From Thermincola carboxydiphila (GTDB lineage Bacteria; Bacillota; Thermincolia; Thermincolales; UBA2595): a DNA stretch of 43,551 nucleotides. Every line of letters starts with the position of its first letter. Within the stretch, counting starts at the first letter, position 1. Below, piece by piece: positions 4,992 through 33,490 of the stretch. A program made the position numbers and the translations under genes. The notes beneath the pieces are model-generated. The model did no database searches. It was not told the DNA's origin and was given only the letters and a program-made list of their open reading frames with translations. The DNA is taken from contig JAENZX010000031.1 in NCBI GenBank assembly GCA_016841045.1, forward strand, positions 1-43,551, given 5' to 3'.

Positions 4992-7004
4992 TCACTTTTG
5001 CAGTCCATATTTTGCTGCCTTCCGTACAATATTGGAGTGGTCGAGGCCTAATACCTCTGCCGCCTTCCTTATGGAAGGATAATTATCTAAAGCCATTCTA
5101 ATCAGTTTCTTCTCCAATATTTCCTTAGCCTCCGGAATTGGCATAAGCTCATTAACCATAATAGGCGAATGAAACTTGTTTTTAAACTTGGCAAGCTGCT
5201 CCCGAACCTGCCGGGCTTCTATCACTTCATCATCTGTAATGACCAGCAGTCGTTCCATGACGTTCTGCAGTTCCCTTACGTTGCCTGACCAACTATAGGA
5301 CTCCAGAATCGGCAGAGCATTAGGGTCAAGCCGCTTCTTAACTCCGTATTTCTCATTATAGGTCTGAATAAAGTGCATCGCCAGTGGAAGGATATCTTCT
5401 TTTCTTTCACGCAAGGGCGGGACTTCAATTGGAACCACATTTAGCCGGTAAAAAAGGTCTTCGCGAAAAGCTCCCTCCTGTACCCGTTCCCAAATATCCT
5501 GGTTGGTGGCAGCAATAATTCTGACATCCAGTTTAATAGGCTTCGTTCCGCCAATCCGGTATATTTCCTGTTCCTGGAGAACCCGCAACAATTTTACCTG
5601 AAGATTAGTCGGCATATCTCCTATTTCATCTAAAAGCAAGGTACCCCGGTCTGCTATCTCAAACATTCCTAGTTTTACCTCCCTGTTGGCTCCAGTAAAA
5701 GCCCCAGGTTCATAACCAAAAAGTTCAGATTCTAAAAGATTTTCCGGAATCGCTCCACAGTTAATTTGAACAAAACTACCTATATTGGCCCTGGAACTGG
5801 CATTATGAATAATCCTGGCCAGCACTTCCTTCCCTACACCTGATTCACCAAGGATTAGTACTGTAGCATCAGTCTGAGCTGTTCGGACTGCCAGATTGAA
5901 AATTTCCATCATTCCAGGACTCTTAGCAATAATCTTATCCTTTGAAAGACGCTCCGGAATGAACTGAGATAACTCTGTCTGGTACCGGCTGGCCAATAGT
6001 TTGGATTCTTTCAGTTCCTCATTGAGCTTATTTAGTTCTGTCATGTCACGGACATTAGTTACTACCCTGATAACCTTGCCGTCAGAACCAAATATCGGAC
6101 TGCCGGTAACAAGCACTTCTTTTCCAGTAATAATTTTTTGGACACCGGTAACTATTCTACCTTCCTGGAGCGCTCTTACGGTGACTGATTCATGATGAAA
6201 AATTCCGGTTTCAAACAGGTTATTAATCAACTTGCCTTCGAAGTGTGTTGCATCCAAACCTGTCAGACGGGCAAGAGCCTGGTTAATTCGTATGCCTCTC
6301 CCCTGGTCATCAGTAATCATGACTCCATCAAAGGAGGATTCAATAATCGCATCTAATTCACGATTCAGCTGCTGAACAGAAGCCAGTTCTGAAGAGACCT
6401 TCTCTAGTTCAGTGATGTCCTGAAAAACGGCCAGCGCCCCTGTAATTTTGTTATTACAGACAATTGGTGCGCGGTTGGAGATAATGGTTCGACCATTGGT
6501 TTCCAGTTTCTGTCCGTACTGGATGTCACCGGTCTCACAAGTCTCAGGCAGACGACTGGCTGGAAACAATTCTTTAATGTGCTTCCCAATTGCACTCCTA
6601 TCGACCCCCAGACGACGGCATGCCTCCTGGTTCAATAAAACGATATTACCGGCACGGTTGATAGCGATAATTCCGTTCGGCACACTTTCCAACAATGACC
6701 GAAAATTCCCATCCGAATCTTCAACAGGAAGCCACGAATCGTAATCCAGCAGAGCCTTCTCAGGAGCGTCATTTTCTCTATAAGTAGTGAATTCTGATTC
6801 CATGACGTCCTTTACTTTGCTCTCCGGCTCAGATTGCACTCTCCTAAGACCAACCGTTAACCGAAGCAAGCCAATGATTTGGTTATTTCTGACAACAGGC
6901 GCAGAGCAAACATCCTCGTTAATCATAGTTTCCAATGCTTCTTTTAAGGGCCGGTCAGGATCAAATACTAAAGCACTGGGTCTAACTAGTTTTTGAATCC
7001 CCAT
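4992..7004 (-). CDS. Sigma-54 activator 1 (CBS-PAS-PAS-AAA+-Fis)
   Basis: A 670-residue enhancer-binding activator. Order: CBS pair (about 5-105, the second shortened), PAS 1 (about 106-205, starting LLESVPNGIIAINRAG), PAS 2 (about 222-325), AAA+ (about 350-590) with Walker A GESGVGKE, the sigma-54 contact GAFTGA and Walker B TLLLDEIGD, then a Fis-type helix-turn-helix ending the protein. Compared with its paralogue at 9067-11163 it lacks 24 residues joining CBS 2 to PAS 1 and 4 more in the CBS linker, while DNA for residues after about 115 is essentially identical. AGGAGGG precedes the ATG. Only 46 bp separate it from the terminator of the permease gene upstream, so it may be expressed by read-through. 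Likely target: the adjacent ligase gene. Confidence 0.88.
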   Translation of the reverse strand: MGIQKLVRPSALVFDPDRPLKEALETMINEDVCSAPVVRNNQIIGLLRLTVGLRRVQSEPESKVKDVMESEFTTYRENDAPEKALLDYDSWLPVEDSDGNFRSLLESVPNGIIAINRAGNIVLLNQEACRRLGVDRSAIGKHIKELFPASRLPETCETGDIQYGQKLETNGRTIISNRAPIVCNNKITGALAVFQDITELEKVSSELASVQQLNRELDAIIESSFDGVMITDDQGRGIRINQALARLTGLDATHFEGKLINNLFETGIFHHESVTVRALQEGRIVTGVQKIITGKEVLVTGSPIFGSDGKVIRVVTNVRDMTELNKLNEELKESKLLASRYQTELSQFIPERLSKDKIIAKSPGMMEIFNLAVRTAQTDATVLILGESGVGKEVLARIIHNASSRANIGSFVQINCGAIPENLLESELFGYEPGAFTGANREVKLGMFEIADRGTLLLDEIGDMPTNLQVKLLRVLQEQEIYRIGGTKPIKLDVRIIAATNQDIWERVQEGAFREDLFYRLNVVPIEVPPLRERKEDILPLAMHFIQTYNEKYGVKKRLDPNALPILESYSWSGNVRELQNVMERLLVITDDEVIEARQVREQLAKFKNKFHSPIMVNELMPIPEAKEILEKKLIRMALDNYPSIRKAAEVLGLDHSNIVRKAAKYGLQK

Positions 7005-9066: not shown

Positions 9067-11163
9067 TCACTTTTGTAATCCATATTTTGCTGCCTTCCGT
9101 ATAATATTGGAGTGGTCGAGGCCTAATACCTCTGCCGCCTTCCTTATGGAAGGATAATTATCTAAAGCCATTCTAATCAGTTTCTTCTCCAATATTTCCT
9201 TAGCCTCCGGAATTGGCATAAGCTCATTAACCATAATAGGCGAATGAAACTTGTTTTTAAACTTGGCAAGCTGCTCCCGAACCTGCCGGGCTTCTATCAC
9301 TTCATCATCTGTAATGACCAGCAGTCGTTCCATGACGTTCTGCAGTTCCCTTACGTTGCCTGACCAACTATAGGACTCCAGAATCGGCAGAGCATTAGGG
9401 TCAAGCCGCTTCTTAACTCCGTATTTCTCATTATAGGTCTGAATAAAGTGCATCGCCAGTGGAAGGATATCTTCTTTTCTTTCACGCAAGGGCGGGACTT
9501 CAATTGGAACCACATTTAGCCGGTAAAAAAGGTCTTCGCGAAAAGCTCCCTCCTGTACCCGTTCCCAAATATCCTGGTTGGTGGCAGCAATAATTCTGAC
9601 ATCCAGTTTAATAGGCTTCGTTCCGCCAATCCGGTATATTTCCTGTTCCTGGAGAACCCGCAACAATTTTACCTGAAGATTAGTCGGCATATCTCCTATT
9701 TCATCTAAAAGCAAGGTACCCCGGTCTGCTATCTCAAACATTCCTAGTTTTACCTCCCTGTTGGCTCCAGTAAAAGCCCCAGGTTCATAACCAAAAAGTT
9801 CAGATTCTAAAAGATTTTCCGGAATCGCTCCACAGTTAATTTGAACAAAACTACCTATATTGGCCCTGGAACTGGCATTATGAATAATCCTGGCCAGCAC
9901 TTCCTTCCCTACACCTGATTCACCAAGGATTAGTACTGTAGCATCAGTCTGAGCTGTTCGGACTGCCAGATTGAAAATTTCCATCATTCCAGGACTCTTA
10001 GCAATAATCTTATCCTTTGAAAGACGCTCCGGAATGAACTGAGATAACTCTGTCTGGTACCGGCTGGCCAATAGTTTGGATTCTTTCAGTTCCTCATTGA
10101 GCTTATTTAGTTCTGTCATGTCACGGACATTAGTTACTACCCTGATAACCTTGCCGTCAGAACCAAATATCGGACTGCCGGTAACAAGCACTTCTTTTCC
10201 AGTAATAATTTTTTGGACACCGGTAACTATTCTACCTTCCTGGAGCGCTCTTACGGTGACTGATTCATGATGAAAAATTCCGGTTTCAAACAGGTTATTA
10301 ATCAACTTGCCTTCGAAGTGTGTTGCATCCAAACCTGTCAGACGGGCAAGAGCCTGGTTAATTCGTATGCCTCTCCCCTGGTCATCAGTAATCATGACTC
10401 CATCAAAGGAGGATTCAATAATCGCATCTAATTCACGATTCAGCTGCTGAACAGAAGCCAGTTCTGAAGAGACCTTCTCTAGTTCAGTGATGTCCTGAAA
10501 AACGGCCAGCGCCCCTGTAATTTTGTTATTACAGACAATTGGTGCGCGGTTGGAGATAATGGTTCGACCATTGGTTTCCAGTTTCTGTCCGTACTGGATG
10601 TCACCGGTCTCACAAGTCTCAGGCAGACGACTGGCTGGAAACAATTCTTTAATGTGCTTCCCAATTGCACTCCTATCGACCCCCAGACGACGGCATGCCT
10701 CCTGGTTCAATAAAACGATATTACCGGCACGGTTAATAGCGATAATTCCATTTGGCACACTTTCAAGTAACGACTGGGTTCTCTGACGATTGGCAGCAAA
10801 AGATTCCTGTAGATAAGCGGCCAGTTCTTTTTGATAGATAACACCTTTAAAATTCCCATCCGAATCTTCAACGGGAAGCCACGAATCGTAATTCAGCAGA
10901 GCCTTCTCAGGGTCTTCATTTTCTCTATAAGTAGTGAATTCAGTTTCCATGACATCTTTTACTTTGCTCTCCTGCTCATGCTTTTCACCGGAGCGCGTAA
11001 ACCTAAGACCAGCCGTCAACTGTAAAATGCCTGCTAGTTGGTTGTTTCTGACAACTGGTGCAGAGCAAACATCCTCGTTAATCATGGTTTCTAATGCTTC
11101 TTTTAAGGGCTGGTCAGGATTAAACACTAAAGTACTAGGACTAACTAGTTTTTGAATCCCCAT
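9067..11163 (-). CDS. Sigma-54 activator 2 (CBS-CBS-PAS-PAS-AAA+-Fis)
   Basis: The full-length 698-residue version of the paralogous pair. Two CBS repeats (about 5-58 and 72-125), a helical linker (about 120-132), PAS 1 (about 133-232), PAS 2 (about 250-352), AAA+ (about 378-618) with GESGVGKE, GAFTGA and TLLLDEIGD, and a C-terminal Fis-type helix-turn-helix identical to that of activator 1 except Ile for Val in SNIIRK. CBS pairs usually bind adenosine nucleotides, and PAS domains could bind the aromatic effector. AGGAGGG precedes the ATG. It has a 267-bp upstream region with a possible TATAAT box at 11220-11225, so unlike activator 1 it probably has its own promoter. Likely target: the permease gene directly downstream. 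Confidence 0.9.
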   Translation of the reverse strand: MGIQKLVSPSTLVFNPDQPLKEALETMINEDVCSAPVVRNNQLAGILQLTAGLRFTRSGEKHEQESKVKDVMETEFTTYRENEDPEKALLNYDSWLPVEDSDGNFKGVIYQKELAAYLQESFAANRQRTQSLLESVPNGIIAINRAGNIVLLNQEACRRLGVDRSAIGKHIKELFPASRLPETCETGDIQYGQKLETNGRTIISNRAPIVCNNKITGALAVFQDITELEKVSSELASVQQLNRELDAIIESSFDGVMITDDQGRGIRINQALARLTGLDATHFEGKLINNLFETGIFHHESVTVRALQEGRIVTGVQKIITGKEVLVTGSPIFGSDGKVIRVVTNVRDMTELNKLNEELKESKLLASRYQTELSQFIPERLSKDKIIAKSPGMMEIFNLAVRTAQTDATVLILGESGVGKEVLARIIHNASSRANIGSFVQINCGAIPENLLESELFGYEPGAFTGANREVKLGMFEIADRGTLLLDEIGDMPTNLQVKLLRVLQEQEIYRIGGTKPIKLDVRIIAATNQDIWERVQEGAFREDLFYRLNVVPIEVPPLRERKEDILPLAMHFIQTYNEKYGVKKRLDPNALPILESYSWSGNVRELQNVMERLLVITDDEVIEARQVREQLAKFKNKFHSPIMVNELMPIPEAKEILEKKLIRMALDNYPSIRKAAEVLGLDHSNIIRKAAKYGLQK

Positions 11164-23175: not shown

Positions 23176-23763
23176 TTAACCTTTTAACTCTCTGCCTGTT
23201 ATAAAAGCCTTCTTATTTAATTCCACGAATCTGGCAGGTACCAGATCGGAAATTACATTAAGCCATATTTCCGGAGCAATTTCCAGGTCAGCAGAAAGTC
23301 GTCCGAGCATGATTACCCCAGCCAAAGCCGGATTACCCAATTGCTGAGCCAGGCCAATAGCATCTATCCATTCAAAGTGTTGGGCCCGGAACTTTAATTC
23401 CTCTTCTATAGCACTTTCAGCCGGGTATACTGCCTGACCTGTTGAAACCGTCGGCGGGAACATCTTGTGCTTGTTGACATAAACCACAGAGGAAGGATTA
23501 AGATACTCGGTCCAACGGGCAGCTTCCAACATTTCAAATCCAAGTACAAACTCTGCTTTTCCTTTTTCAATTAGCGGAGAATAAACTTTCTTTCCCCAGC
23601 GAACCTGGCTTTCTACTCCACCGCCGCGCTGAGACATGCCATGTACTTCGGATTTCTTGACATCATAACCGGCCTTATAACCAACCTCAACCAAAATATC
23701 ACTTGCCAGAATCGTACCTTGTCCGCCAACACCGGCGACAATGAAGTCAATTTTATTACGCAT
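23176..23763 (-). CDS. iorB: Indolepyruvate ferredoxin oxidoreductase, beta subunit
   Basis: A 195-residue protein of the pyruvate ferredoxin oxidoreductase gamma-domain family: VAGVGGQGTILASDIL near residues 8-23 and EVHGMSQRGGGVESQVRWG near 41-59 are the hallmark segments. With IorA it oxidatively decarboxylates arylpyruvates to arylacetyl-CoA and reduces ferredoxin. The start at 23763 (MRNKIDF) has AAAGGAGGT upstream and begins 20 bp after the iorA stop; an in-frame start at 23865 lies inside iorA and adds residues unlike the family. Confidence 0.9.
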   Translation of the reverse strand: MRNKIDFIVAGVGGQGTILASDILVEVGYKAGYDVKKSEVHGMSQRGGGVESQVRWGKKVYSPLIEKGKAEFVLGFEMLEAARWTEYLNPSSVVYVNKHKMFPPTVSTGQAVYPAESAIEEELKFRAQHFEWIDAIGLAQQLGNPALAGVIMLGRLSADLEIAPEIWLNVISDLVPARFVELNKKAFITGRELKG

Positions 23764-23782
23764 CCTACAACCTACCTCCTTT

Positions 23783-25537
23783 CTACTGCTCCTCTGGTTT
23801 TTTGATTGCATTGAAGGGACAAACCTCTGCACACAGTCCGCAGCCATTACAGAGTATGCTATCAATAGCTACGTACTCTTCATTCTTAGTAAGCGGTGGG
23901 CAGCCAATCTTGAGGCAAGTCCCGCAGTTAGTACATGCTTCTTTGTCAACAACCGGCACCGGGTGCTTTTCTTTGACATTAAGTACACAGGGATATCTGA
24001 CAATGACAACTGAAGGTTCATCGGAATCAATACATTCCTTCAGGACATTCATGACATTATCAATTTCATACGGATTGACAACTTCCACCCGTTTGGCTCC
24101 AAGCCCGCGAACAACAGTTTCAATATCAATCCGCTCAGCAGGCTCCCCCAGCAGGGTCATGCCGGTTCCTGGATTGTCCTGGTGCCCTGTCATAGCCGTA
24201 ATCCTGTTATCCGTAATTATCAGGGTACTTACACCCTTGTTGTAAAGTACATCTATCATCGGGTGAATCCCGCTGTGAAAGAAGGTTGAATCCCCAAGAA
24301 CCGCAGCAGTCCGGCCTTTAACACCAACTTTATCTACCCCATGTACAACTCCAAAACCAGCGCCCATGCAGCCGCATGTATGCATTGCTGCTAACGGTGG
24401 TGCAGCACCAAGGGTGTAGCAGCCGATATCGCCAAAAACAGAGACATCGAGGCGCTTTAATGCATGGAACAATCCGCGGTGACCGCAACCCGGGCAGAGC
24501 ATTGGTGGACGCATAGGCAATTCAATGTTTACAGCGGATACATTTGCCGGTGCTTCGCTGATCAAACTGGCTTTATAGGATACTTCTCGAATCAGGGACG
24601 GACTAAATTCACCCATAATCGGATAAACATCTTTTCCAATACAATTAAGACCCAATACTTTGACATATTCTTCAATGAAAGGATCAAGTTCTTCGATGAC
24701 AACCAACTTCTTAACCCGCTTGGCAAAATCAAGAATCATTTGCTTTGGCAGCGGCCAGACCATACCCAGTTTTAGTATTGTAGCAGTGGGAAAAACTTCA
24801 CGGGCATACTGATAAACAACACCACTGGTTATAATGCCGATTTCGTCGTTGCCCGGCTCAATTTTGTTGATATCAAGGGTCTCTGCCAGAGCAGCCAGCT
24901 TTTGCAGTCTTTCTTCAACCACAGGATGGCGGCGACGCGCATTGGCCGGAACCATAACATATTTGGGGATATTTCGTTCATAAGCTGGAATTTCATCTGT
25001 GGGAATCACCCTGTTGCTTTCGTCCATATCAACCAGAGTACGGGAATGGGAAAGCCGGGTAGTGGTACGAATCATTACCGGGGTATCAAACTGCTCACTC
25101 ATTTCAAGAGCAATACGAACATAGTTTTTAGCTTCTTCGCTATCAGATGGTTCCAGCATGGGAACTTTTGCAAACTTGGCGTAATTGCGGTTATCCTGTT
25201 CGTTTTGGGAGCTGTGCATACCCGGGTCATCAGCGTTGATAATTACGAGACCACCCTTAAGCCCGGTATAAGATGAGTAGAAAAGTGATTCAGCGGCGAC
25301 GTTCATACCTACGTGCTTCATAGCACATAATGCGCGTCGTCCAGTATATGCAGCACCAATAGCCACATCCATGGCGACTTTTTCGTTAGGGGACCATTCG
25401 GCATAAATGGTATCATATGCAGCACAAGTCTTAACTACTTCTGTACTTGGGGTTCCGGGGTAGGCTGCCGCAAGCTGGACTCCGGCCAGATAGGCCCCAA
25501 AAGCAAATGCTTCGTTACCGGATAATAATTTTTTCAT
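23783..25537 (-). CDS. iorA: Indolepyruvate ferredoxin oxidoreductase, alpha subunit
   Basis: A 584-residue thiamine-diphosphate enzyme subunit. The N-terminal domain has AAAYPGTPSTEV near 24-35. The central region has LCPGCGHRGLFHAL near 352-365, the TPP-binding domain has GDIGCYTLGAAPP near 375-387 and GDSTFFHSGIHP near 425-436, and the C-terminus has a ferredoxin domain with CTNCGTCLKIGC near 535-546 and CNGCGLCAEVC near 565-575. It oxidises arylpyruvates (indole-, phenyl-, hydroxyphenylpyruvate) to arylacetyl-CoA. GGAGGTGT lies before the ATG. It follows the dehydratase genes after a 178-bp gap. Confidence 0.92.
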   Translation of the reverse strand: MKKLLSGNEAFAFGAYLAGVQLAAAYPGTPSTEVVKTCAAYDTIYAEWSPNEKVAMDVAIGAAYTGRRALCAMKHVGMNVAAESLFYSSYTGLKGGLVIINADDPGMHSSQNEQDNRNYAKFAKVPMLEPSDSEEAKNYVRIALEMSEQFDTPVMIRTTTRLSHSRTLVDMDESNRVIPTDEIPAYERNIPKYVMVPANARRRHPVVEERLQKLAALAETLDINKIEPGNDEIGIITSGVVYQYAREVFPTATILKLGMVWPLPKQMILDFAKRVKKLVVIEELDPFIEEYVKVLGLNCIGKDVYPIMGEFSPSLIREVSYKASLISEAPANVSAVNIELPMRPPMLCPGCGHRGLFHALKRLDVSVFGDIGCYTLGAAPPLAAMHTCGCMGAGFGVVHGVDKVGVKGRTAAVLGDSTFFHSGIHPMIDVLYNKGVSTLIITDNRITAMTGHQDNPGTGMTLLGEPAERIDIETVVRGLGAKRVEVVNPYEIDNVMNVLKECIDSDEPSVVIVRYPCVLNVKEKHPVPVVDKEACTNCGTCLKIGCPPLTKNEEYVAIDSILCNGCGLCAEVCPFNAIKKPEEQ

Positions 25538-25715
25538 GTTTACACCTCCTCATGATTTGGGACATTGGTCAGTTTTTTATCGCTAATTGACTAAAAGCCC
25601 GTTGCGACTTATCATAACTTTTTTGTTTGGTTGATCCCTCCCCTCAACGGCTAATCTTAACTGGAGAAGACAAATAATTCTTAACCAATTTACTGCTTAC
25701 AGATGAAATCGACTG

Positions 25716-26915
25716 CTATTGGTCTTTTCTCAGGCGTTCGAAGAAGGCTTCCAGCCGGATTTGTATCTGTCCTTCGGAAAAAAAACGCTGATCCGACATA
25801 TCGGCTTCAAATACCACGCCCGGCTTTCCTGTTCGTTCCGTAATTACCTGGCGTTTATCATAAAGTCCAAAGGAATTTGGCTTACAGCTGCGGTTTGAAA
25901 ACAATACAAAGCCGTCACATTTATACCTTTTCATAAAATCCATTTTCAGTTTGATTCGGTATTCAAAGCCTCGATTCACAAACTGCTCAGTATAGACTTC
26001 TGCCAAACTCTCCATCGGTCGGCTGACATCAAATTTGTGAGCCCAGGAGTGGGTATACTGAGATGCCACAACCAAAGCATCATTGGCGGCAAACAAATCG
26101 GAGAACCAGCGTAGACGCGGCCATACCGGGATATGGTCAAAATATATTTTAAAACGTTCATTGGGAATGGCCGTTATACCCTTGGCCACCCGCTCATCCA
26201 GTTCTTCCTTCAGGGCCATATAATAATCAACTGCAGTCTGAGTACCTCGCCAGGTAACAATCGGGGCCATATGGAAGCAAGCATCAAAGAAACCAAAGGG
26301 AGCCGGTTTCAGGGCTGCCGTATCAAGGCAGTCGTTCCAAAGCTGGGTAGCTTCACTGGCCAATTTAAGAACCTCTACCAGCCGTTCCATTTCAAATTTC
26401 TTGCCCGTGGTTCGCTCAAGAAAATCTACCATTTCCCAAAGCTGGTCAATGAAATAATTCTTGCCTAAAGGACTTACCTGGTCCTCAATCAGGGGCGAAT
26501 CCAGTAAAAAGTACGGTGCATTATAATAGCGACCGGCAGCCTCAAACCACTTAGGTAAACTACCGCATTGGGTATTGCAGCAAACGAGCAGGTCAGGCGG
26601 CAAAATATTTCCCACAGGATGATCTGTAGCATAGGCATCACCTATCCCACATCGGGCATAACCGCATAAGTCGTTAAAATAACCCCGTCGCTCAGCATAC
26701 TCTGATAATTTATCAGCTACTTTACGTGCAGCCCCAAGGGCACCAAAGTTTTCTGGATAATAAGGGAAGATATCCATTGCATAAATAATTTCAACTGGAA
26801 AAACTGCGGTAACCCAGGCAACAGGTATTCCTGATTTGCGATTTTCCTCGCCTTTGGCGTAATACTTAGCCATTAGATTCTTCAAGAGGCCTGCAGTTTT
26901 AAACGGTGCACTCAT
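25716..26915 (-). CDS. 2-hydroxyacyl-CoA dehydratase / BcrB-HgdB family subunit
   Basis: A 399-residue subunit of the radical dehydratase/class I benzoyl-CoA reductase superfamily. Cysteine groups CGYARCG near 82-88, CCNTQCG near 110-116 and the RSCKPNSFG segment near 346-354 can supply a [4Fe-4S] cluster, and the C-terminal EADMSDQRFFSEGQIQIRLEAF block is typical. Its start overlaps the stop of the next subunit gene (TAATG), so the two are coupled. Length and the single 259-residue activator resemble R-phenyllactyl-CoA dehydratase-like enzymes more than the four-subunit benzoyl-CoA reductase, but the sequence also has BcrB-like character. Confidence 0.85.
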   Translation of the reverse strand: MSAPFKTAGLLKNLMAKYYAKGEENRKSGIPVAWVTAVFPVEIIYAMDIFPYYPENFGALGAARKVADKLSEYAERRGYFNDLCGYARCGIGDAYATDHPVGNILPPDLLVCCNTQCGSLPKWFEAAGRYYNAPYFLLDSPLIEDQVSPLGKNYFIDQLWEMVDFLERTTGKKFEMERLVEVLKLASEATQLWNDCLDTAALKPAPFGFFDACFHMAPIVTWRGTQTAVDYYMALKEELDERVAKGITAIPNERFKIYFDHIPVWPRLRWFSDLFAANDALVVASQYTHSWAHKFDVSRPMESLAEVYTEQFVNRGFEYRIKLKMDFMKRYKCDGFVLFSNRSCKPNSFGLYDKRQVITERTGKPGVVFEADMSDQRFFSEGQIQIRLEAFFERLRKDQ

Positions 26916-28048
26916 TATTTGCTACCTCCCATCATTTCAATAAAGGCCTGTAATCTGGTACGAGCCTGGCCGAGGGAGGTATTGGCATACTCTGTTTCCA
27001 ACCGGATATTGGGAATGCCGGCCTTGTTCATTGCTTCCCTCATATCGTTATAATCATAGTTTTCAGGTTCACAGAATTTAAGGTGCAGGAAGACCATGCC
27101 CTGGACGCCTGCATTTTGGGCTGTTTCAACCAAAAATCCGCGGCGCTCCCGGGTGGTACTATCAAACCCGCCAAATGGAATACGATTTAATTGACGTACT
27201 GCCAAAGCGTCCAGCGGGTCACCGTCAGCAATGACATCAGGCCCCATATAACGGGCTCCCGTTAAAAGATCGTCGGCAACTACTACTGCTCCCAATTCTT
27301 CAATCATGTCCAGGATTTCGGGAGGTTCCCAGACCCCTCCGGAAATTGCCAGGCGAACCCGCTTATCATTAGAGGTTGAAATATTCGCTAATTCTTTAAG
27401 CAGCTCTTCAACCAGTGTTGTATGTTCTGCTTTATCCATGAACATTGCAGCTTTAATCACGGTATATAACATCCGCGAAGAAATTACCGCGGTGTTGGTG
27501 GAATGGTATTCGTAGAGGCGGCGTAAAACCGTCCGATTAGCATTAAAAACATTAATACTGTCTTTTAAAGCCTCATTTGTAATGACTTTCCCGGTACACT
27601 TTTCCAGATTATCCTTTAGCCGGGCCAATTCTCCCTTAAGATAAGTGCGTGCACTGGGACGGTCAATCTGGCGAGGCATCAGGTAGTTGTCGATATACGG
27701 GGTGCTCAGGGCGTGTCGCCAAATACCTACCAACATTCGGGTTGTATCACATGTATGGGGTATAATAATACCGTCCAGAAAATCCAGATTTCCGTTTAAC
27801 CCCTGTTCCAGGCACCCTCTCATCAATGAACAGGCCCAAGTCTGTAAATGTGCATCCGCCAAGTAAATATGCTCATTAGTACCTAATACACCTACTGGAA
27901 AAGCACCGGCAGCATGTATTAGTTCTTCAGGCACATCAGTCGGCAGCCATCCAATGACCTTTTGTCCTTGTTCCTTACGCTTTTTGGCCTCGGCATATGG
28001 TTCTGCTACAGCTGCATTAAATCGGGCCAATAGTTGCTCAATCGCCAT
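26915..28048 (-). CDS. 2-hydroxyacyl-CoA dehydratase / BcrC-type subunit
   Basis: A 377-residue partner subunit. Possible cluster cysteines are in WACSLMRGC near 71-79, HTCDTTR near 98-104 and LKFCEPENYDY near 325-335; HTCDT and KFCEPE are strongly conserved in this superfamily. The N-terminal region (residues 8-60) has the usual GWLPTDVPEELIHAAGAFP. With the partner gene it would form the heterodimer that removes water from a 2-hydroxyacyl-CoA through a ketyl radical, after ATP-driven electron transfer from the activator encoded just upstream (47 bp). An aryl-CoA reductase activity is the alternative. Confidence 0.86.
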   Translation of the reverse strand: MAIEQLLARFNAAVAEPYAEAKKRKEQGQKVIGWLPTDVPEELIHAAGAFPVGVLGTNEHIYLADAHLQTWACSLMRGCLEQGLNGNLDFLDGIIIPHTCDTTRMLVGIWRHALSTPYIDNYLMPRQIDRPSARTYLKGELARLKDNLEKCTGKVITNEALKDSINVFNANRTVLRRLYEYHSTNTAVISSRMLYTVIKAAMFMDKAEHTTLVEELLKELANISTSNDKRVRLAISGGVWEPPEILDMIEELGAVVVADDLLTGARYMGPDVIADGDPLDALAVRQLNRIPFGGFDSTTRERRGFLVETAQNAGVQGMVFLHLKFCEPENYDYNDMREAMNKAGIPNIRLETEYANTSLGQARTRLQAFIEMMGGSK

Positions 28049-28095
28049 ATCTATCTTCCTTTCCCGGTATTTTTTCCCGGTTATCTGGGATATTG

Positions 28096-28875
28096 TTATT
28101 CGTTACGGGCCAAATCTTGTGCAAAGAGTGCGGCACCATAGGCACCAATTAATTGTGGTTCCTCCGGAACAATAACTTTTGAACCTAGCTTTTTTTCAAG
28201 CTCCCTGACTAGCCCGATGTTTTTGGCTCCACCGCCGGTTATAGCAATACGCTCTTCAATTCTAATCATTTTCACCATGCTAACAATTCGTTCAGCAATT
28301 GCCTGATGTATACCAGCTATAATATCTACTTTGGGGCGACCTTTTGCCACTAGGGATATAACCTGAGACTCTGCAAATACTGTGCAGGTAATGCCAATTT
28401 CCTCAGGTGAATTAGACAGCAGTGCCAGCAGGCCCATGTCTTCCAGTTTGACTTCCAGGGCATTAGCCATCACTTCCAGGAAACGCCCGGTGCCCGCTGC
28501 ACATTTATCATTCATGACAAAATCATCGACGGATCCCTGGTCATCAATCTTGATACCCTTGCTGTCCTGCCCGCCGATATCAATTACGGTTCTCACATAA
28601 GGAAACAAGTGACCAATACCACGCCCAAAACAGGAAATTTCCGTGACCTGCTTCTGTGCAAAAGGAACTGAGATCCTGCCGTAGCCGGTAGCTACAGCCG
28701 CTCTTAGATCAGCAGCCTGCAGGCCTAACGGCATCAGAACTTCCTCAATTAATTTTTGTGAAGCAACCTTAATTTCCCCACCTGTTCTTTTGACAAGGGA
28801 TCCTACAACCTGGTTATCTTTTAAAATTATGGCCTTGGAATAAATAGACCCAATATCGATTCCTGCTACATACAT
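28096..28875 (-). CDS. ATPase activator of 2-hydroxyacyl-CoA dehydratase (HgdC/BcrA family)
   Basis: A 259-residue ASKHA-fold ATPase. GIDIGSIYSKAIIL at the N-terminus and VIDIGGQDSKGIKID near 97-111 bind nucleotide; NDKCAAGTGRFLEVMA near 121-136 and ITCTVFAESQVISL near 160-173 supply the two Cys of the cluster bridging the homodimer; ITGGGAKN near 213-220 completes the site. Such proteins hydrolyse ATP to inject a low-potential electron into the dehydratase. The length matches HgdC/FldI (about 260), not the longer BcrA, and only one copy is present, which favours a dehydratase over a class I benzoyl-CoA reductase. Confidence 0.9.
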   Translation of the reverse strand: MYVAGIDIGSIYSKAIILKDNQVVGSLVKRTGGEIKVASQKLIEEVLMPLGLQAADLRAAVATGYGRISVPFAQKQVTEISCFGRGIGHLFPYVRTVIDIGGQDSKGIKIDDQGSVDDFVMNDKCAAGTGRFLEVMANALEVKLEDMGLLALLSNSPEEIGITCTVFAESQVISLVAKGRPKVDIIAGIHQAIAERIVSMVKMIRIEERIAITGGGAKNIGLVRELEKKLGSKVIVPEEPQLIGAYGAALFAQDLARNE

Positions 28876-28947
28876 TTGGCTGATCCTCCCTTAAACTGCC
28901 TAGGATTTCCGGTGATAGTCTATTGAGTGATGTATCGCCTTTTATTT

Positions 28948-30546
28948 TTAGGCGTCACTCCACTTGCCGTACCTCTCCCTTAAGACCCTGTGCAGGATCT
29001 TACCAGTCCCGGTCCTGGGCATCTCGGCCTCGTTAATAAAGCGAACTGCCTTGGGTCGTTTGAAACCGGCCATTTTGTCCCGACAAAAGTCCATGATCTC
29101 CTTAGTGAGGTTTTCGCTGCCTGTGTATCCATCATGCAGGATTACTAACGCTACAACGATCTCGCCCCACTTTTCCTCGGGAACACCGATTACCGCCACA
29201 TCTCTGACCGCCGGATGACCGCCAACGACATTTTCCACTTCTGACGGGTAAACATTCTCTCCACCCGTAATAATCATATTGGCTTTGCGGTCGACCAGGT
29301 AATAGTATCCGTCTTCATCTCTTCTCGCCATGTCCCCCGCAGTACACCACTCACCAACAAACGTTTCCTTCGTCTTAGCGGGGTCATGCCAGTATTCTTT
29401 AAAGCACAGCGGCGAGCGAATATACAGCTCTCCAACCTCGCCCGGAGGTACATCGTTACCTTCCTCATTCAGAATCCTGAGCTGATCAATACCGAAGATT
29501 TCCTTACCAATAGAACCCAGTTTATTAAACTGATCTTCCGGTCTCAAGAGAGTAGCCAAACCTGTTTCTGTTGAACCATATGCCTCCCATAATTCCACCG
29601 ACTTGAAATGGTCCATGATAGCAAGCTTTAAATCCCGGCGTGCCGGGGCAGAAGAGATTAGAAGCTGTCTGATGCACCCTACATCGTAACGAGCCTTTAC
29701 CTCTTCGGGAAGGGCCAAAATCATAGTGTAGTGAGTCGGCACCAGGGACGTATAAGTAACTCTGTATTCAGCTATGGTCCGTAAAAGATCCTCCGGTTCG
29801 AAGCTAATCATGTTATATACCATTACCGGCGCACTGACGTAGGTATAGCAAAAGGAATAAAAGATTGAGTTTACATGGCACATGGGCATTACAATAAGGG
29901 GTTTATCAGTGGGTCTTACCCCTACATTCATGTTGCTGAGAAGATACTGGGCAATAGTATTTTCGTGAGTCCGCACAACCCCTTTGGGCCGGCCTGTCGT
30001 CCCCGAGGTATACATGATGACCCAGGGGTCATCTGAATCCACCATTACATCCGGTTCCGCCGGGTTGCTTTTATTAAGGACATCTTCGTAGTTAACATAT
30101 CCGGAGGGAACCTCACCCTCACCAAGGCAAATATAATTTTCCTGGGGAATCGACGTAATGTTGGCGCGGATACTATCGACATTCTTTACGAATGGTTCTT
30201 CCACGATAAATGCCTTACAATCGGAGTGTTTCAATATATACTCATAGTCTACCGGTGCCAGGCGAAACATAATGGGAACCGCTATCTGACCTCCTTTAGC
30301 ACAGGCTGCGTAAATCTCCATCCATTCAACACGATTGTAAGCAAGGACAGCAAACCTGTCGCCGTAACCAACTCCCATTTTTGCCAAAGCGTCTGACAGA
30401 CGGCACGCCCGTTCATTCCATTCCTTGAAGGTGAAGCTCTTGGACTTATCCTGGCATCCTAACCGGTCAGGATAATTAAGCGCATTTACTTTCAGTACCG
30501 TTCCGACGTGCATCCATTTGCTAGCAGTTTCTGTTCCTGTTTCCAA
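28948..30546 (-). CDS. AMP-forming acyl/aryl-CoA ligase
   Basis: A 532-residue ligase of the FadD/aryl-CoA synthetase type. P-loop MYTSGTTGRPKGVVRTHEN near 177-195, YGSTETG near 330-336, GDMARRDEDGYYYLVDRKANMI near 409-430, GENVYPSEVE near 434-443 and the catalytic Lys in TGTGKILHR near 518 are all present. The start is TTG at 30546, with AGGAGG 8 nt upstream. It lies between the 2-hydroxyacid dehydrogenase and dehydratase activator genes, so a 2-hydroxy acid such as an aryllactate, or its acrylate product, is a plausible substrate. Confidence 0.85.
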   Translation of the reverse strand: METGTETASKWMHVGTVLKVNALNYPDRLGCQDKSKSFTFKEWNERACRLSDALAKMGVGYGDRFAVLAYNRVEWMEIYAACAKGGQIAVPIMFRLAPVDYEYILKHSDCKAFIVEEPFVKNVDSIRANITSIPQENYICLGEGEVPSGYVNYEDVLNKSNPAEPDVMVDSDDPWVIMYTSGTTGRPKGVVRTHENTIAQYLLSNMNVGVRPTDKPLIVMPMCHVNSIFYSFCYTYVSAPVMVYNMISFEPEDLLRTIAEYRVTYTSLVPTHYTMILALPEEVKARYDVGCIRQLLISSAPARRDLKLAIMDHFKSVELWEAYGSTETGLATLLRPEDQFNKLGSIGKEIFGIDQLRILNEEGNDVPPGEVGELYIRSPLCFKEYWHDPAKTKETFVGEWCTAGDMARRDEDGYYYLVDRKANMIITGGENVYPSEVENVVGGHPAVRDVAVIGVPEEKWGEIVVALVILHDGYTGSENLTKEIMDFCRDKMAGFKRPKAVRFINEAEMPRTGTGKILHRVLRERYGKWSDA

Positions 30547-30626: not shown

Positions 30627-31667
30627 TTATTGGGATACAGCTTCGAGTTGCAGGTGTGAATTTTTCTTAAAATCCGCATTTCCGGTTAACTCCTTTTGCG
30701 AGGATTTAACTACATTAATCAGCTCCTGCCCTTTTAAGTAGCGGTCGATGTTTTCCACAAACACAGCGCCAAAACGTGCTGCATACATTGTTGTCCAGCT
30801 AGACACGTGGGGGGTAATAGTAAGGTTGGGAGTATCCCAGAATTCATCCTCGGGCGGTAGATAAGACGGTAGTGGAGTTTTGATCCAAAAGGTATCATTA
30901 GCAGCACCTTCAATCCATTTTTCGCGCAACGCCTGCATCAAATCTTCTTTAATCACGAGAGACCCCCGTGCACAGTTAATCAAATAGCCTGTGGGCTTCA
31001 TCCACTTTAGAGATTCCTTGTTTATCATGCCAATGGTTTCAGCAGTTTCAGGGCAGCTTAAAACAACATAATCGCTTTGTTCAAAAACTTCTTTGATCTG
31101 GCTGGTTAAATAAACCTGATCGACAAATGGAATATCCATAATCTGAATTTCCGTACCAATTACACGCATGTCGAATGCTTTAGCTCGCTTGGCAATCTGG
31201 CGACCGATACCACCCAGACCGATGATACCAATGGTTTTTTCGCAAAGTTCTTCACCCTGGATACGGATAAATTTGTGTTCTTTCTGATTCTCCCTCATCT
31301 GATCGAATCGCTTGGAATGATTAAGCATAAGACCAAGAACGAATTCGGCAATAGGTATGCCTGAGCCACCGGGGACATTAATTAATGAAACATGCGCGGG
31401 AAGAAAGTTTGCCTTAACTATATGGTCATAACCGGAACTGAAGGTCATATACCATTTTAAGTTTGGCATTTTATTCATCCACGGCCCCAGGACAGGCCAA
31501 GTACCGATTATTTCCACATCACCAATTTTGTCATCCTCAATTTGCGATTCATGTGCATAGGTTAAAATTTTAAGTTCTCCATTTTTCACTAATTCAGGAA
31601 ACCTTTTTTTCACCACACCCGCATACTTTTCCGCTTCCTGTTGAACGATCATGATTTTAGTAGTCAT
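30627..31667 (-). CDS. D-2-hydroxyacid dehydrogenase homologue lacking the usual catalytic Glu
   Basis: A 346-residue NAD(P)-dependent dehydrogenase fold. The Rossmann motif GIIGLGGIGRQIAKRA lies near 146-161, the substrate-binding Arg is in INCARGSL near 230-237, and the catalytic His is in TITPHVSSW near 284-292. The usual DVF..EPLP segment reads NDTFWIKTPLP: the Glu that pairs with the His is replaced, here by Thr. The enzyme may have altered or no dehydrogenase activity. It is the first gene of the long operon, directly behind the leader RNA at 31731-31858. AGGAGG precedes the ATG. If active, it would convert a 2-oxo acid to the D-2-hydroxy acid. Confidence 0.82.
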   Translation of the reverse strand: MTTKIMIVQQEAEKYAGVVKKRFPELVKNGELKILTYAHESQIEDDKIGDVEIIGTWPVLGPWMNKMPNLKWYMTFSSGYDHIVKANFLPAHVSLINVPGGSGIPIAEFVLGLMLNHSKRFDQMRENQKEHKFIRIQGEELCEKTIGIIGLGGIGRQIAKRAKAFDMRVIGTEIQIMDIPFVDQVYLTSQIKEVFEQSDYVVLSCPETAETIGMINKESLKWMKPTGYLINCARGSLVIKEDLMQALREKWIEGAANDTFWIKTPLPSYLPPEDEFWDTPNLTITPHVSSWTTMYAARFGAVFVENIDRYLKGQELINVVKSSQKELTGNADFKKNSHLQLEAVSQ

Positions 31668-31730: not shown

Positions 31731-31778
31731 AAAAAACCAGCACCAATATTTTCATTAAGAAAATAGTGGTAGCTGGTT
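31731..31778 (-). terminator. Leader terminator in front of the 2-hydroxyacid operon
   Basis: Long stem AACCAGC-TACCA-CTATTTTC with GAAAATATTGG-TGCTGGTT on the minus strand, followed by TTTTTT. It lies about 65 nt before the dehydrogenase start and after the likely promoter, so it can only act as a conditional terminator for that operon. Confidence 0.8.
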
Positions 31779-31858
31779 ATTGATCTAACTGAAAAGATTT
31801 TTGGCGATCTCTGGTTAGAACAGCAGCTAACCTTAAAGGTAACCATATTTGATTACCT
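31731..31858 (-). ncRNA. Structured leader copy A: candidate attenuator or riboswitch
   Basis: On the minus strand three hairpins precede a terminator: P1 AAGGTAA/TTACCTT (31836-31858), P2 GGTTAG/CTAACC (31813-31832), P3 AGAT/ATCT (31795-31810), then a terminator with arms AACCAGC.../GCTGGTT (31735-31778) and six T. GGTTAGCTG in P2 can instead pair with CAGCTACC in the terminator arm, giving a possible antiterminator. A second copy at 32763-32887 keeps the fold with different P1 bases. It is not recognised as a T-box, TPP, SAM, lysine, cyclic-di-GMP or fluoride element. Confidence 0.65.
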
Positions 31859-31929
31859 TCTGGTTTCATATTTAAGTTTATATATTAAACATATACTTTC
31901 TTGTGGAATCCGAAACAGCATTTTGCTTT

Positions 31930-31957
31930 ATTATAGTATATATCACAGTATGTAAAA
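31930..31957 (-). promoter_or_regulatory. Likely sigma-A promoter of the long operon with direct repeats
   Basis: Minus strand has TATAAT (31930-31935) and TTTTAC or TTTACA (31951-31957) with a 15-16 nt spacer. ATACTGT occurs twice, 12 bp apart (31945-31951 and 31957-31963), overlapping the -35 region, which could be an operator. Confidence 0.5.
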
Positions 31958-31985
31958 CAGTATATAATATCTCGGCCAAATGTCA

Positions 31986-32405
31986 TTATTTGCTTGCAGC
32001 CGGTGGTGAAAAAAATTTAACGGTTGACCCTAATGAATTGTTTCTCGATCTGGACGGTAAGATGGGGGTCGCCTCTGTTTTTGGGTTAAACTCATTTTTG
32101 TAACTTAAGTATTCAGCATAAGCTTTTTTGGCGGCCGCTATAATGGCTTTATCTCCATGCCCCCGGTAATATTTGCTAATCTGTTCCAGAATATCCTTAA
32201 AATCAGTTTCTATGTTTTTATTAATAAAAAATTTGGTTATAAAATTGTTTCCTAGTTCAGTAACACTTGTCGTTTGAACTCTTACTATAATACCGTTTTG
32301 TGGCTCTATTTCTAATCCTATGCCAAAGACCTTGTAGATTACCTCACCTGTGATACCTTCAGGCAGTCGAGCATATCCGACACAAAGAATAGTTTCTGAA
32401 CTCAT
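31986..32405 (-). CDS. DUF3870-type protein, copy 1
   Basis: A 139-residue protein of unknown function. The conserved part (about 5-110) starts with ILCVGYARLPEGITGEVIYKVFG, then EIEPQNGIIVRVQTTSVTEL, and ends with YRGHGDKAIIAAAKKAYAEYLSY, a pattern I associate with DUF3870. The last 30 residues are a low-complexity tail unlike that of the other copy. It is soluble and has no catalytic motif I recognise. The ATG at 32405 is used (GGGAGGG 5 nt upstream); a GTG at 32411 overlaps that site. It lies just upstream of the leader and the long CoA-ester operon. Confidence 0.75.
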   Translation of the reverse strand: MSSETILCVGYARLPEGITGEVIYKVFGIGLEIEPQNGIIVRVQTTSVTELGNNFITKFFINKNIETDFKDILEQISKYYRGHGDKAIIAAAKKAYAEYLSYKNEFNPKTEATPILPSRSRNNSLGSTVKFFSPPAASK

Positions 32406-32513
32406 GTCCACCCTCCCTTTCTTTTAAAATTGTTTTAATTAGGGGCCAAGAGATTTATCCTCTTATCACCTCCCACCAGCTATTAAGTTAGGTTTAATAC
32501 TTTACCTTAGTAG

Positions 32514-32708
32514 TGACATGATAAACTAAAAAATTCGGTTAAAAAATCATCTCCCAATTTAGTAACGCAAGTAGCTTGAGCATTTACAATACTGCCGGTT
32601 TGCGGGTCTATCTCTAATCCTACACCAAAAACCTTATAAAGCACTTCCATAGTCGTACCTTCAAGCAGGCGAGCATATCCAACACAGAGAACAAGTATTG
32701 GAATTCAT
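32514..32708 (-). pseudogene. Frameshifted, truncated DUF3870 gene
   Basis: The minus strand starts ATGAATTCCAATACTTG, matching the start of the gene at 33056-33490, but one extra base near codon 5 shifts the frame into a stop. In the restored frame it reads LCVGYARLLEGTTMEVLYKVFGVGLEID and continues to FLTEFF, about half of the family length, then homology ends. A weak ribosome binding site remains. It sits directly downstream of leader copy B. Confidence 0.75.
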
Positions 32709-32762
32709 ATTAACTCTTCCCTTCATGTAAAATTAGCAGGCACTAATAACAGTTACAAAAAC

Positions 32763-32887
32763 AAAAAACCAGCCCCAATATTTTCATTAAGAAAATAGTG
32801 GTAGCTGGTTATTGATCTAACTGTAGAGATTTTTGCGATCCCTGGTTAGAACGGCAGCTAACCTTCGGGAGAACCATTTAGGTTTCC
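32763..32887 (-). ncRNA. Structured leader copy B
   Basis: Closely matches leader copy A over the P2-P3-terminator part (P2 at 32844-32863, terminator 32767-32810, T-tract 32763-32768). P1 is GGAGAACC/GGTTTCC (about 32868-32887): different bases from copy A, same hairpin. Changes within P3 and the terminator loop are few. It now leads only into a broken DUF3870 gene and the intact copy behind it. Confidence 0.65.
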
Positions 32888-33055
32888 TTTAGCTTCACAT
32901 ATTCTTTTATATTAAGTAATTTCAACCTATACCTATTTGAATTCTTACTTACTTTTAATTTAATATACAACAAGTTTCAAGTTCAGAATACAAAACATCC
33001 GTGAAATGTCATTAATTGCCTCCAAGCGGTTGATGATTAAAGTTAATCGGTAGCA

Positions 33056-33490
33056 CTAGCAGTCTTCCATAACCCAACCTTTCTCAATAAACCAGTCTCT
33101 ACAACTAAAATGCGTCTTCGTCACTAGCGTATGAACGTTGTCTATCTTCGGGTTTAGGTTGGGTTTTTGGTTAACCTCTTTTTTATAACTTAAATATTCA
33201 TTATAGGCTTTTTGCGCAGCCGCTAAAATGGCTTTACTTCCAGGTGCCCGGTAATTCCTACTAATCTGTTCCAAAATATCCTTAAAATCAGTTTCAACAT
33301 TTTTATTGATAAAGAATTTGGTTAAGAAATCGTTTCCAAGTCCAGTAACACTTGTTGTTTGAGCTCTGACTATAATACTGCTTTCCGTTTCTATTTCTAA
33401 TCCTAGGCCGAAAACCTTATAAAGCACTGCCATTGTCGTACCCTCAGGTAGGCGAGCATATCCAACACAGAGAATGGTATTTGAATTCAT
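33056..33490 (-). CDS. DUF3870-type protein, copy 2
   Basis: A 144-residue paralogue of the protein at 31986-32405, nearly identical over LCVGYARLPEG, FGLGLEIE, VRAQTTSVTGLGND, KFFINKN-ETDFKDILEQIS and KAYNEYLSYKK. After about residue 108 it has an unrelated tail with a Cys pair (FSCRDWFIEKGWVMEDC), perhaps fused by frameshift or recombination. AAAGGAGAG lies 5 nt before the ATG. No leader copy precedes it. Function unknown; the link to CoA-ester genes is positional only. Confidence 0.75.
   Translation of the reverse strand: MNSNTILCVGYARLPEGTTMAVLYKVFGLGLEIETESSIIVRAQTTSVTGLGNDFLTKFFINKNVETDFKDILEQISRNYRAPGSKAILAAAQKAYNEYLSYKKEVNQKPNLNPKIDNVHTLVTKTHFSCRDWFIEKGWVMEDC

Follow-up and report, generated by a model that had tools for sequence, protein, structure and literature searches.

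The window, a 43,551-nucleotide stretch of Thermincola carboxydiphila DNA, carries two copies of a leader-like RNA element beside genes that probably ferment 2-hydroxy acids, themselves probably derived from aromatic amino acids. Both copies and all neighbouring genes lie on the minus strand, where the order from 5' to 3' is DUF3870-A, copy 2, a DUF3870 remnant, DUF3870-B, copy 1 and a D-2-hydroxyacid dehydrogenase operon. The genes are as follows:

33056..33490, minus strand: DUF3870 gene A, 5' of copy 2 (Pfam PF12986, E 4.4e-21)
32528..32683, minus strand: decayed DUF3870 remnant just 3' of copy 2 (partial PF12986 match, positions 3-54 of 94; frameshift and truncation)
31986..32411, minus strand: DUF3870 gene B, between copy 2 and copy 1 (Pfam PF12986, E 1.3e-22)
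30627..31667, minus strand: D-2-hydroxyacid dehydrogenase, first gene 3' of copy 1 (Pfam PF02826)
23176..30546, minus strand: rest of the conserved operon, comprising CoA ligase, acyl-CoA dehydratase activase, HadBC-like dehydratase subunits, IorA and IorB (Pfam and NCBIfam)

The dehydrogenase gene is followed by genes for a CoA ligase, an acyl-CoA dehydratase activase, two HadBC-like dehydratase subunits, IorA and IorB, and then by a phenylacetate-CoA-ligase-like protein, a 3-hydroxyacyl-CoA dehydrogenase, a thiolase-like protein and an enoyl-CoA hydratase. Judged by its gene families, the operon seems to encode the fermentation of arylpyruvates, with what look like a reductive branch via aryl-lactyl-CoA and an oxidative branch via IorAB. 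Elsewhere in the window (4992-7004 and 9067-11163, minus strand), an MFS transporter gene lies between two near-identical PAS/sigma-54 activator genes; the first of these is without a stretch found in the second, and the pair resembles a recent duplication with deletion.

The two copies differ in what follows them. An earlier reading of the sequence alone (hereafter the sequence-only reading) had placed one copy before the 2-hydroxyacid/CoA operon, and this describes copy 1, whose terminator ends ~64 nt 5' of the dehydrogenase open reading frame (ORF). Copy 2 instead precedes the frameshifted, truncated DUF3870 remnant (window 32480-32710, minus strand, between copy 2 and intact DUF3870-B), with no intact gene immediately behind it; intact DUF3870-B still lies downstream, beyond the remnant. 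Because the remnant sits between copy 2 and DUF3870-B, the DUF3870 cassette was probably triplicated, with one copy since decayed.

From 5' to 3', copy 1 comprises AACC, the P1 hairpin, AA, the switching strand GGUUAGCUG, an inner arm, an AAUAAC linker, CAGCUACC, the rest of the terminator and a U tract. The parts of both copies are listed here, the third sequence in each count being a homologous leader in the genome SKS3.bin3, described below:

31731..31866, minus strand: copy 1, whole conserved element, 5' end 31866 (alignment; covariance model R2 match 31864-31731, 146.9 bits, not an independent score, as R2 was built from copies 1 and 2)
31862..31865, minus strand: copy 1 anti-antiterminator strand AACC, whose partner is GGUU of the switching strand (minimum free energy (MFE) fold; ensemble)
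31835..31860, minus strand: copy 1 P1 hairpin (z -4.3 against shuffles)
31824..31832, minus strand: copy 1 switching strand GGUUAGCUG, the antiterminator 5' strand (invariant in 3/3 sequences; pairing 8/8 in 3/3)
31782..31821, minus strand: copy 1 inner arm, two helices with bulge UCA and apical loop CGCCAAAA; a possible binding site for ligand or protein (-9.7 kcal/mol alone, 2/500 shuffles as good; conserved)
31768..31775, minus strand: copy 1 CAGCUACC, antiterminator 3' strand and part of the terminator 5' arm (pairing and ensemble folding)
31731..31778, minus strand: copy 1 intrinsic terminator, stem and U tract (-21.5 kcal/mol, z -7.6)
31959..31986, minus strand: promoter-like ATGACA-16-TATACT, 5' of copy 1 (consensus scan)
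32763..32897, minus strand: copy 2, whole conserved element, 5' end 32897 (R2 match 32895-32763, 148.9 bits, likewise not independent)
32889..32894, minus strand: copy 2 anti-antiterminator strand AGCUAA, whose partner is UUAGCU of the switching strand, in a register unlike that of copy 1 (MFE fold; ensemble signal up to 0.60)
32868..32887, minus strand: copy 2 P1 hairpin (z -2.1; 11/500 shuffles as good)
32855..32863, minus strand: copy 2 switching strand GGUUAGCUG (invariance and pairing)
32814..32852, minus strand: copy 2 inner arm (-10.0 kcal/mol; 0/500 shuffles as good)
32800..32807, minus strand: copy 2 antiterminator 3' strand CAGCUACC (pairing and ensemble)
32763..32810, minus strand: copy 2 intrinsic terminator (-20.8 kcal/mol, z -6.4)
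32985..33012, minus strand: promoter-like ATGACA-16-TATTCT, 5' of copy 2 (consensus scan)

The leaders are far better conserved than their surroundings. The two copies proposed by the sequence-only reading, which had left their strand unstated, are indeed present, with 104-nt cores identical at 98 of 103 aligned positions (about 95%; 94% by BLAST). By comparison, the stretch between DUF3870 and the core is 66% identical between copies 1 and 2, and the DUF3870 gene copies are 74% identical at the nucleotide level. Since the cores so exceed both flanks and genes, the leader RNA has, judging from these identities, either been kept by selection or been made uniform through gene conversion as the sequence around it diverged. 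Copy 2 matches copy 1 in conservation despite the decay of the gene directly behind it. BLAST found only two copies in the 4.16-Mb genome, and blastn found none in plasmids at E<=1e-5; on these grounds we rejected a repetitive or mobile element.

The element also occurs in one distant genome. Searching 398 Bacillota genomes with the two-copy covariance model yielded one strong match outside the source genome (87.4 bits, E 3e-15 per genome), on contig JAJZSN010000034.1 of the metagenome-assembled genome (MAG) 'Bacillota bacterium isolate SKS3.bin3', whose family and class differ from those of the window's genome. Gene order is the same there: DUF3870, leader (L059 5790-5921), dehydrogenase, CoA ligase, activase, both dehydratase subunits, IorA and IorB. 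The dehydrogenase protein is 77% identical to the window's, and SKS3.bin3 was the only dehydrogenase relative returned by a protein-pattern scan of 84,980 species. At the nucleotide level the leader core is 86% identical to that of SKS3, and its 66-nt switch region 88–89%, compared with 62–71% for the upstream flank, 68–69% for DUF3870 and 72–74% for the dehydrogenase, activase and dehydratase genes, so that, of the four operon genes compared, three fall below the core, as do the flanks and DUF3870. Because it combines conservation over such a distance with intact synteny, this pattern suggests that the gene cluster may have moved horizontally together with its leader. The CoA ligase gene is 85% identical (L059 7072-8688 versus window 28948-30546) where the other compared operon genes reach 72–74%, hinting at mosaic ancestry or unusual constraint. 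The SKS3 contig also bears a second, paralogous dehydratase module (L080 7339-10458; activase 81% and dehydratase subunits 64–71% identical), and a whole-genome model search found no second leader in SKS3.bin3.

Beyond these two genomes we detected no further members. The leader RNA belongs to no Rfam family tested: none of 4227 models matched anywhere over the window at gathering thresholds, in keeping with the earlier impression that no known riboswitch class fits, and the best permissive matches to the element were eukaryotic miRNA and snoRNA, plastid UTR and sRNA models, all far below threshold. Covariance searches of about 800 distinct Bacillota species, within which two phylum samples overlap, found no true member besides the SKS3 homologue. 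The sequence-only reading had looked to many homologues with covarying P1–P3 for support; with one homologue in about 800 species, a broad family is unsupported. Weaker covariance matches outside the two genomes, each inspected individually, were rejected because they lay within coding sequence (L068, L069, L070 and L071, with L068 antisense to it) or were bare terminators, coding overlaps or chance (L061 and L072–L079); L075–L079 gave no match to a model of the switch region. A degenerate pattern found no match in viral contigs, and an exact-pattern scan of 84,980 species found nothing, a weak negative, since even SKS3 falls outside so strict a pattern. The leader element is missing from the phylum's other DUF3870 loci, and the relatives searched have neither the leader nor a close dehydrogenase orthologue. 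What the sequence-only reading had named as contrary to it (no homologue elsewhere, a known Rfam family or a plain duplicated terminator) is not what we found: a homologue exists, Rfam gives no match and conservation extends well upstream of the terminator.

Both copies fold more stably than chance predicts. Whole-element z-scores are -7.3 for copy 1 and -3.5 for copy 2, and 0 of 200 shuffles fold as well. The terminator claimed earlier for each copy is borne out by strong stems of -20.8 and -21.5 kcal/mol (z -6.4 and -7.6), each followed by TTTTTT on the minus strand. Terminators and inner arms of copies 1 and 2 are beyond chance, the SKS3 inner arm is weaker (15/500 shuffles as good), and P1 z-scores across the three copies are -4.3, -2.1 and -1.2. 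Conserved unpaired stretches separate the conserved helices in the alignment of three sequences (apical CGC.AAA, UCA and AAWAAC).

Considering how the element could act as a switch, we found that GGUUAGCUG has two alternative partners, CAGCUACC in the terminator 5' arm, which makes an antiterminator, or the RNA 5' end. Pairing of GGTTAGCTG with CAGCTACC is possible in both copies, and terminator and antiterminator states are mutually exclusive, as the sequence-only reading had proposed. We computed ensemble folding on growing transcripts of copy 1, copy 2 and the SKS3 leader, an equilibrium calculation that differs from cotranscriptional folding. The UAGCUG/CAGCUA antiterminator has a probability of 0.71–0.91 until shortly before the terminator 3' arm emerges, then drops to <=0.09 within 5–10 nt as the terminator reaches 0.71–0.83, in 3/3 sequences. 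Once the terminator forms, part of the switching strand pairs with the RNA 5' end, again in all three. A local P2 hairpin, GGTTAG/CTAACC, had also been proposed; its probability is about 0.00–0.02 at every length from 96 nt on, because CTAAC pairs with a downstream GTTAG in the longer inner arm.

Strength and covariation of individual helices say less than the agreement of the three sequences. The antiterminator duplex alone is of modest strength, matched by 14–59 of 1000 local shuffles (1.4–5.9%) and by 81–219 of 1000 whole-upstream shuffles (8–22%). In 3/3 sequences its stem is paired at 8/8 positions, the one substitution (G-C to G-U) preserving pairing, and neither it nor the inner-arm helices contain a pair changed on both sides among these three sequences from two genomes. 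One such pair occurs in the terminator and three in P1. The covariation earlier seen in P1 is weak: every copy has a hairpin at the equivalent place, but of 11 aligned pairs only 3 changed on both sides, and unpaired cells amount to 21%. From three sequences, near-absent covariation in the core counts neither as proof of the structure nor as grounds to reject it; support for the structure comes mainly from the agreeing two-state behaviour together with excess conservation.

Combining these observations, we regard the element as probably a rare, previously unreported cis-acting transcription attenuator, of a family absent from Rfam and used twice in series. An intrinsic terminator lies on the coding strand between a putative promoter, recognised as a consensus match only, and the first gene, and computation gives a mutually exclusive antiterminator with conserved pairing in 3/3 sequences. 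In the best reading, the attenuator serves an aryl/2-hydroxyacyl-CoA pathway, either as a riboswitch or as a protein-bound RNA. The sequence-only reading's candidate, a new riboswitch or attenuator, thus stands as to the attenuator, supported by the exclusive folds, the homologue before the same operon and the lack of an Rfam match; the same evidence decides neither for nor against a riboswitch.

The attenuator could work as follows. As RNA polymerase proceeds, GGUUAGCUG would pair with CAGCUA(C/U)C, enclosing the inner arm to form the antiterminator. When the terminator 3' arm emerges, the unassisted RNA would rearrange into the terminator, and GGUUAGCUG would then be partly captured by the 5' end, through AACC/GGUU in copy 1 and SKS3 and AGCUAA/UUAGCU in copy 2. 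A factor bound to the conserved inner arm, loops included, would keep the antiterminator in place and so turn the operon ON. We infer cis action and ON polarity, and likewise the effector, slightly likelier a pathway small molecule than a protein: an aryl 2-oxo- or 2-hydroxy acid, its CoA ester, or an amino acid. The gates would act in series, in the order DUF3870-A, gate 2, remnant and DUF3870-B, gate 1 and dehydrogenase operon. Tandem riboswitches in one operon are reviewed in PMC9481103. The present pair resembles that arrangement in having two copies in series before one operon, each with a terminator, and is unlike it in that DUF3870-B and about 0.9 kb separate the two gates.

The attenuator may be a small-molecule riboswitch, with the inner arm and its internal loops binding a metabolite of the 2-hydroxyacyl-CoA or aryl-pyruvate pathway, a possibility that we hold tentatively. 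Conserved unpaired stretches between conserved helices, a single catabolic operon behind the leader and the absence of a recognised dedicated RNA-binding regulator gene beside it speak for a ligand. Against it count a distribution so narrow that about 800 genomes yielded a single homologue, the scarcity of covariation and the simple topology of the inner arm, in which no multi-stem junction was seen. ON-type terminator riboswitches share with this leader a conserved enclosed arm, a closing stem whose 3' strand lies within the terminator, and mutually exclusive states; the leader is unlike them in having no Rfam match, three examples, almost no core covariation and only a candidate ligand. T-box leaders likewise combine an amino-acid-related operon with a terminator and antiterminator, but no Rfam T-box match occurs in the window and the present element is far shorter. 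With three sequences from two genomes and weak covariation in P1 only, the element falls below the comparative standard for a riboswitch class, and its novelty is that of a new family within a known kind of regulator. More tentative still is the full proposal, in which a very rare and new class of riboswitch would sense a 2-hydroxy or 2-oxo acid, aryl or branched, or its CoA ester and induce the reductive fermentation operon through two serial gates around an IscU-like DUF3870 gene.

A protein bound to the inner arm could instead be what stabilises the antiterminator, as in LicT/SacY, HutP or ANTAR systems, a version of the attenuator that seems to us doubtful. Imperfect bulged hairpins are typical protein sites. 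The leaders of these systems (for LicT/SacY, the RAT) have the same logic, in which an antiterminator hairpin overlaps the terminator; here, in contrast, no Rfam family of this type matched and no adjacent protein of those families was recognised. DUF3870 is the only upstream-adjacent gene in both genomes, and its modest model (mean pLDDT 71) has IscU (PDB 2z7e) as its best match (Foldseek E 0.017, probability 1.00), a lead that predicts an IscU/SufU-like iron-sulfur scaffold rather than an RNA-binding fold. A role for DUF3870 as the RNA-binding regulator is thus not supported. The IscU link found no confirmation when the PDB was searched with a sequence profile, and the literature library searched returned no paper on DUF3870 function. 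Both DUF3870 genes (31986-32411 and 33056-33490, minus strand) adjoin an operon for an iron-sulfur 2-hydroxyacyl-CoA dehydratase, and help with the dehydratase's iron-sulfur clusters, rather than RNA binding, would fit the predicted fold.

The main rival to attenuation is a stand-alone gene for a trans-acting small RNA, with its own promoter and terminator, lying between DUF3870 and the operon; we think it unlikely. Promoter-like hexamers stand at equal positions relative to the element in copies 1 and 2, although the region's total of such matches is not above chance, and the RNA ends in a terminator. The persistence of copy 2 beside a decayed gene would also be explained by a trans-acting RNA, or by gene conversion; a cis role for copy 2 is possible too, because intact DUF3870-B still follows it. 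A conserved overlap of antiterminator and terminator would be purposeless in a plain small RNA, and the position directly before the dehydrogenase gene, repeated in the second genome, fits cis control.

That the element is a mere conserved terminator of DUF3870 mRNA, duplicated with its gene and carrying a functionless upstream part, is improbable. An intact DUF3870 gene does lie directly upstream of all three copies, but the 66-nt switch region, mostly 5' of the terminator stem, is the part that outstrips flanks and DUF3870 in identity to SKS3, and DUF3870 loci elsewhere in the phylum are without the element. Attenuation by a leader peptide, the trp-operon mechanism, we reject almost entirely, for no short ORF is conserved: ORFs of 30, 45 and 22 codons do cross the element in copies 1 and 2, but their frames differ between copies and SKS3 offers no ATG, GTG or TTG start for an ORF of at least 8 codons across the switching region.

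If confirmed, the attenuator would add a new family of RNA control to the strictly anaerobic chemistry of (R)-2-hydroxyacyl-CoA dehydratase pathways; in the library searched we found no paper joining a riboswitch to this dehydratase. Were it a protein-bound attenuator, it would be an ordinary addition. Leaders confined to two genomes escape comparative screens, and this one may offer a concrete, if small, gauge of the number of riboswitch-like RNAs still unseen.
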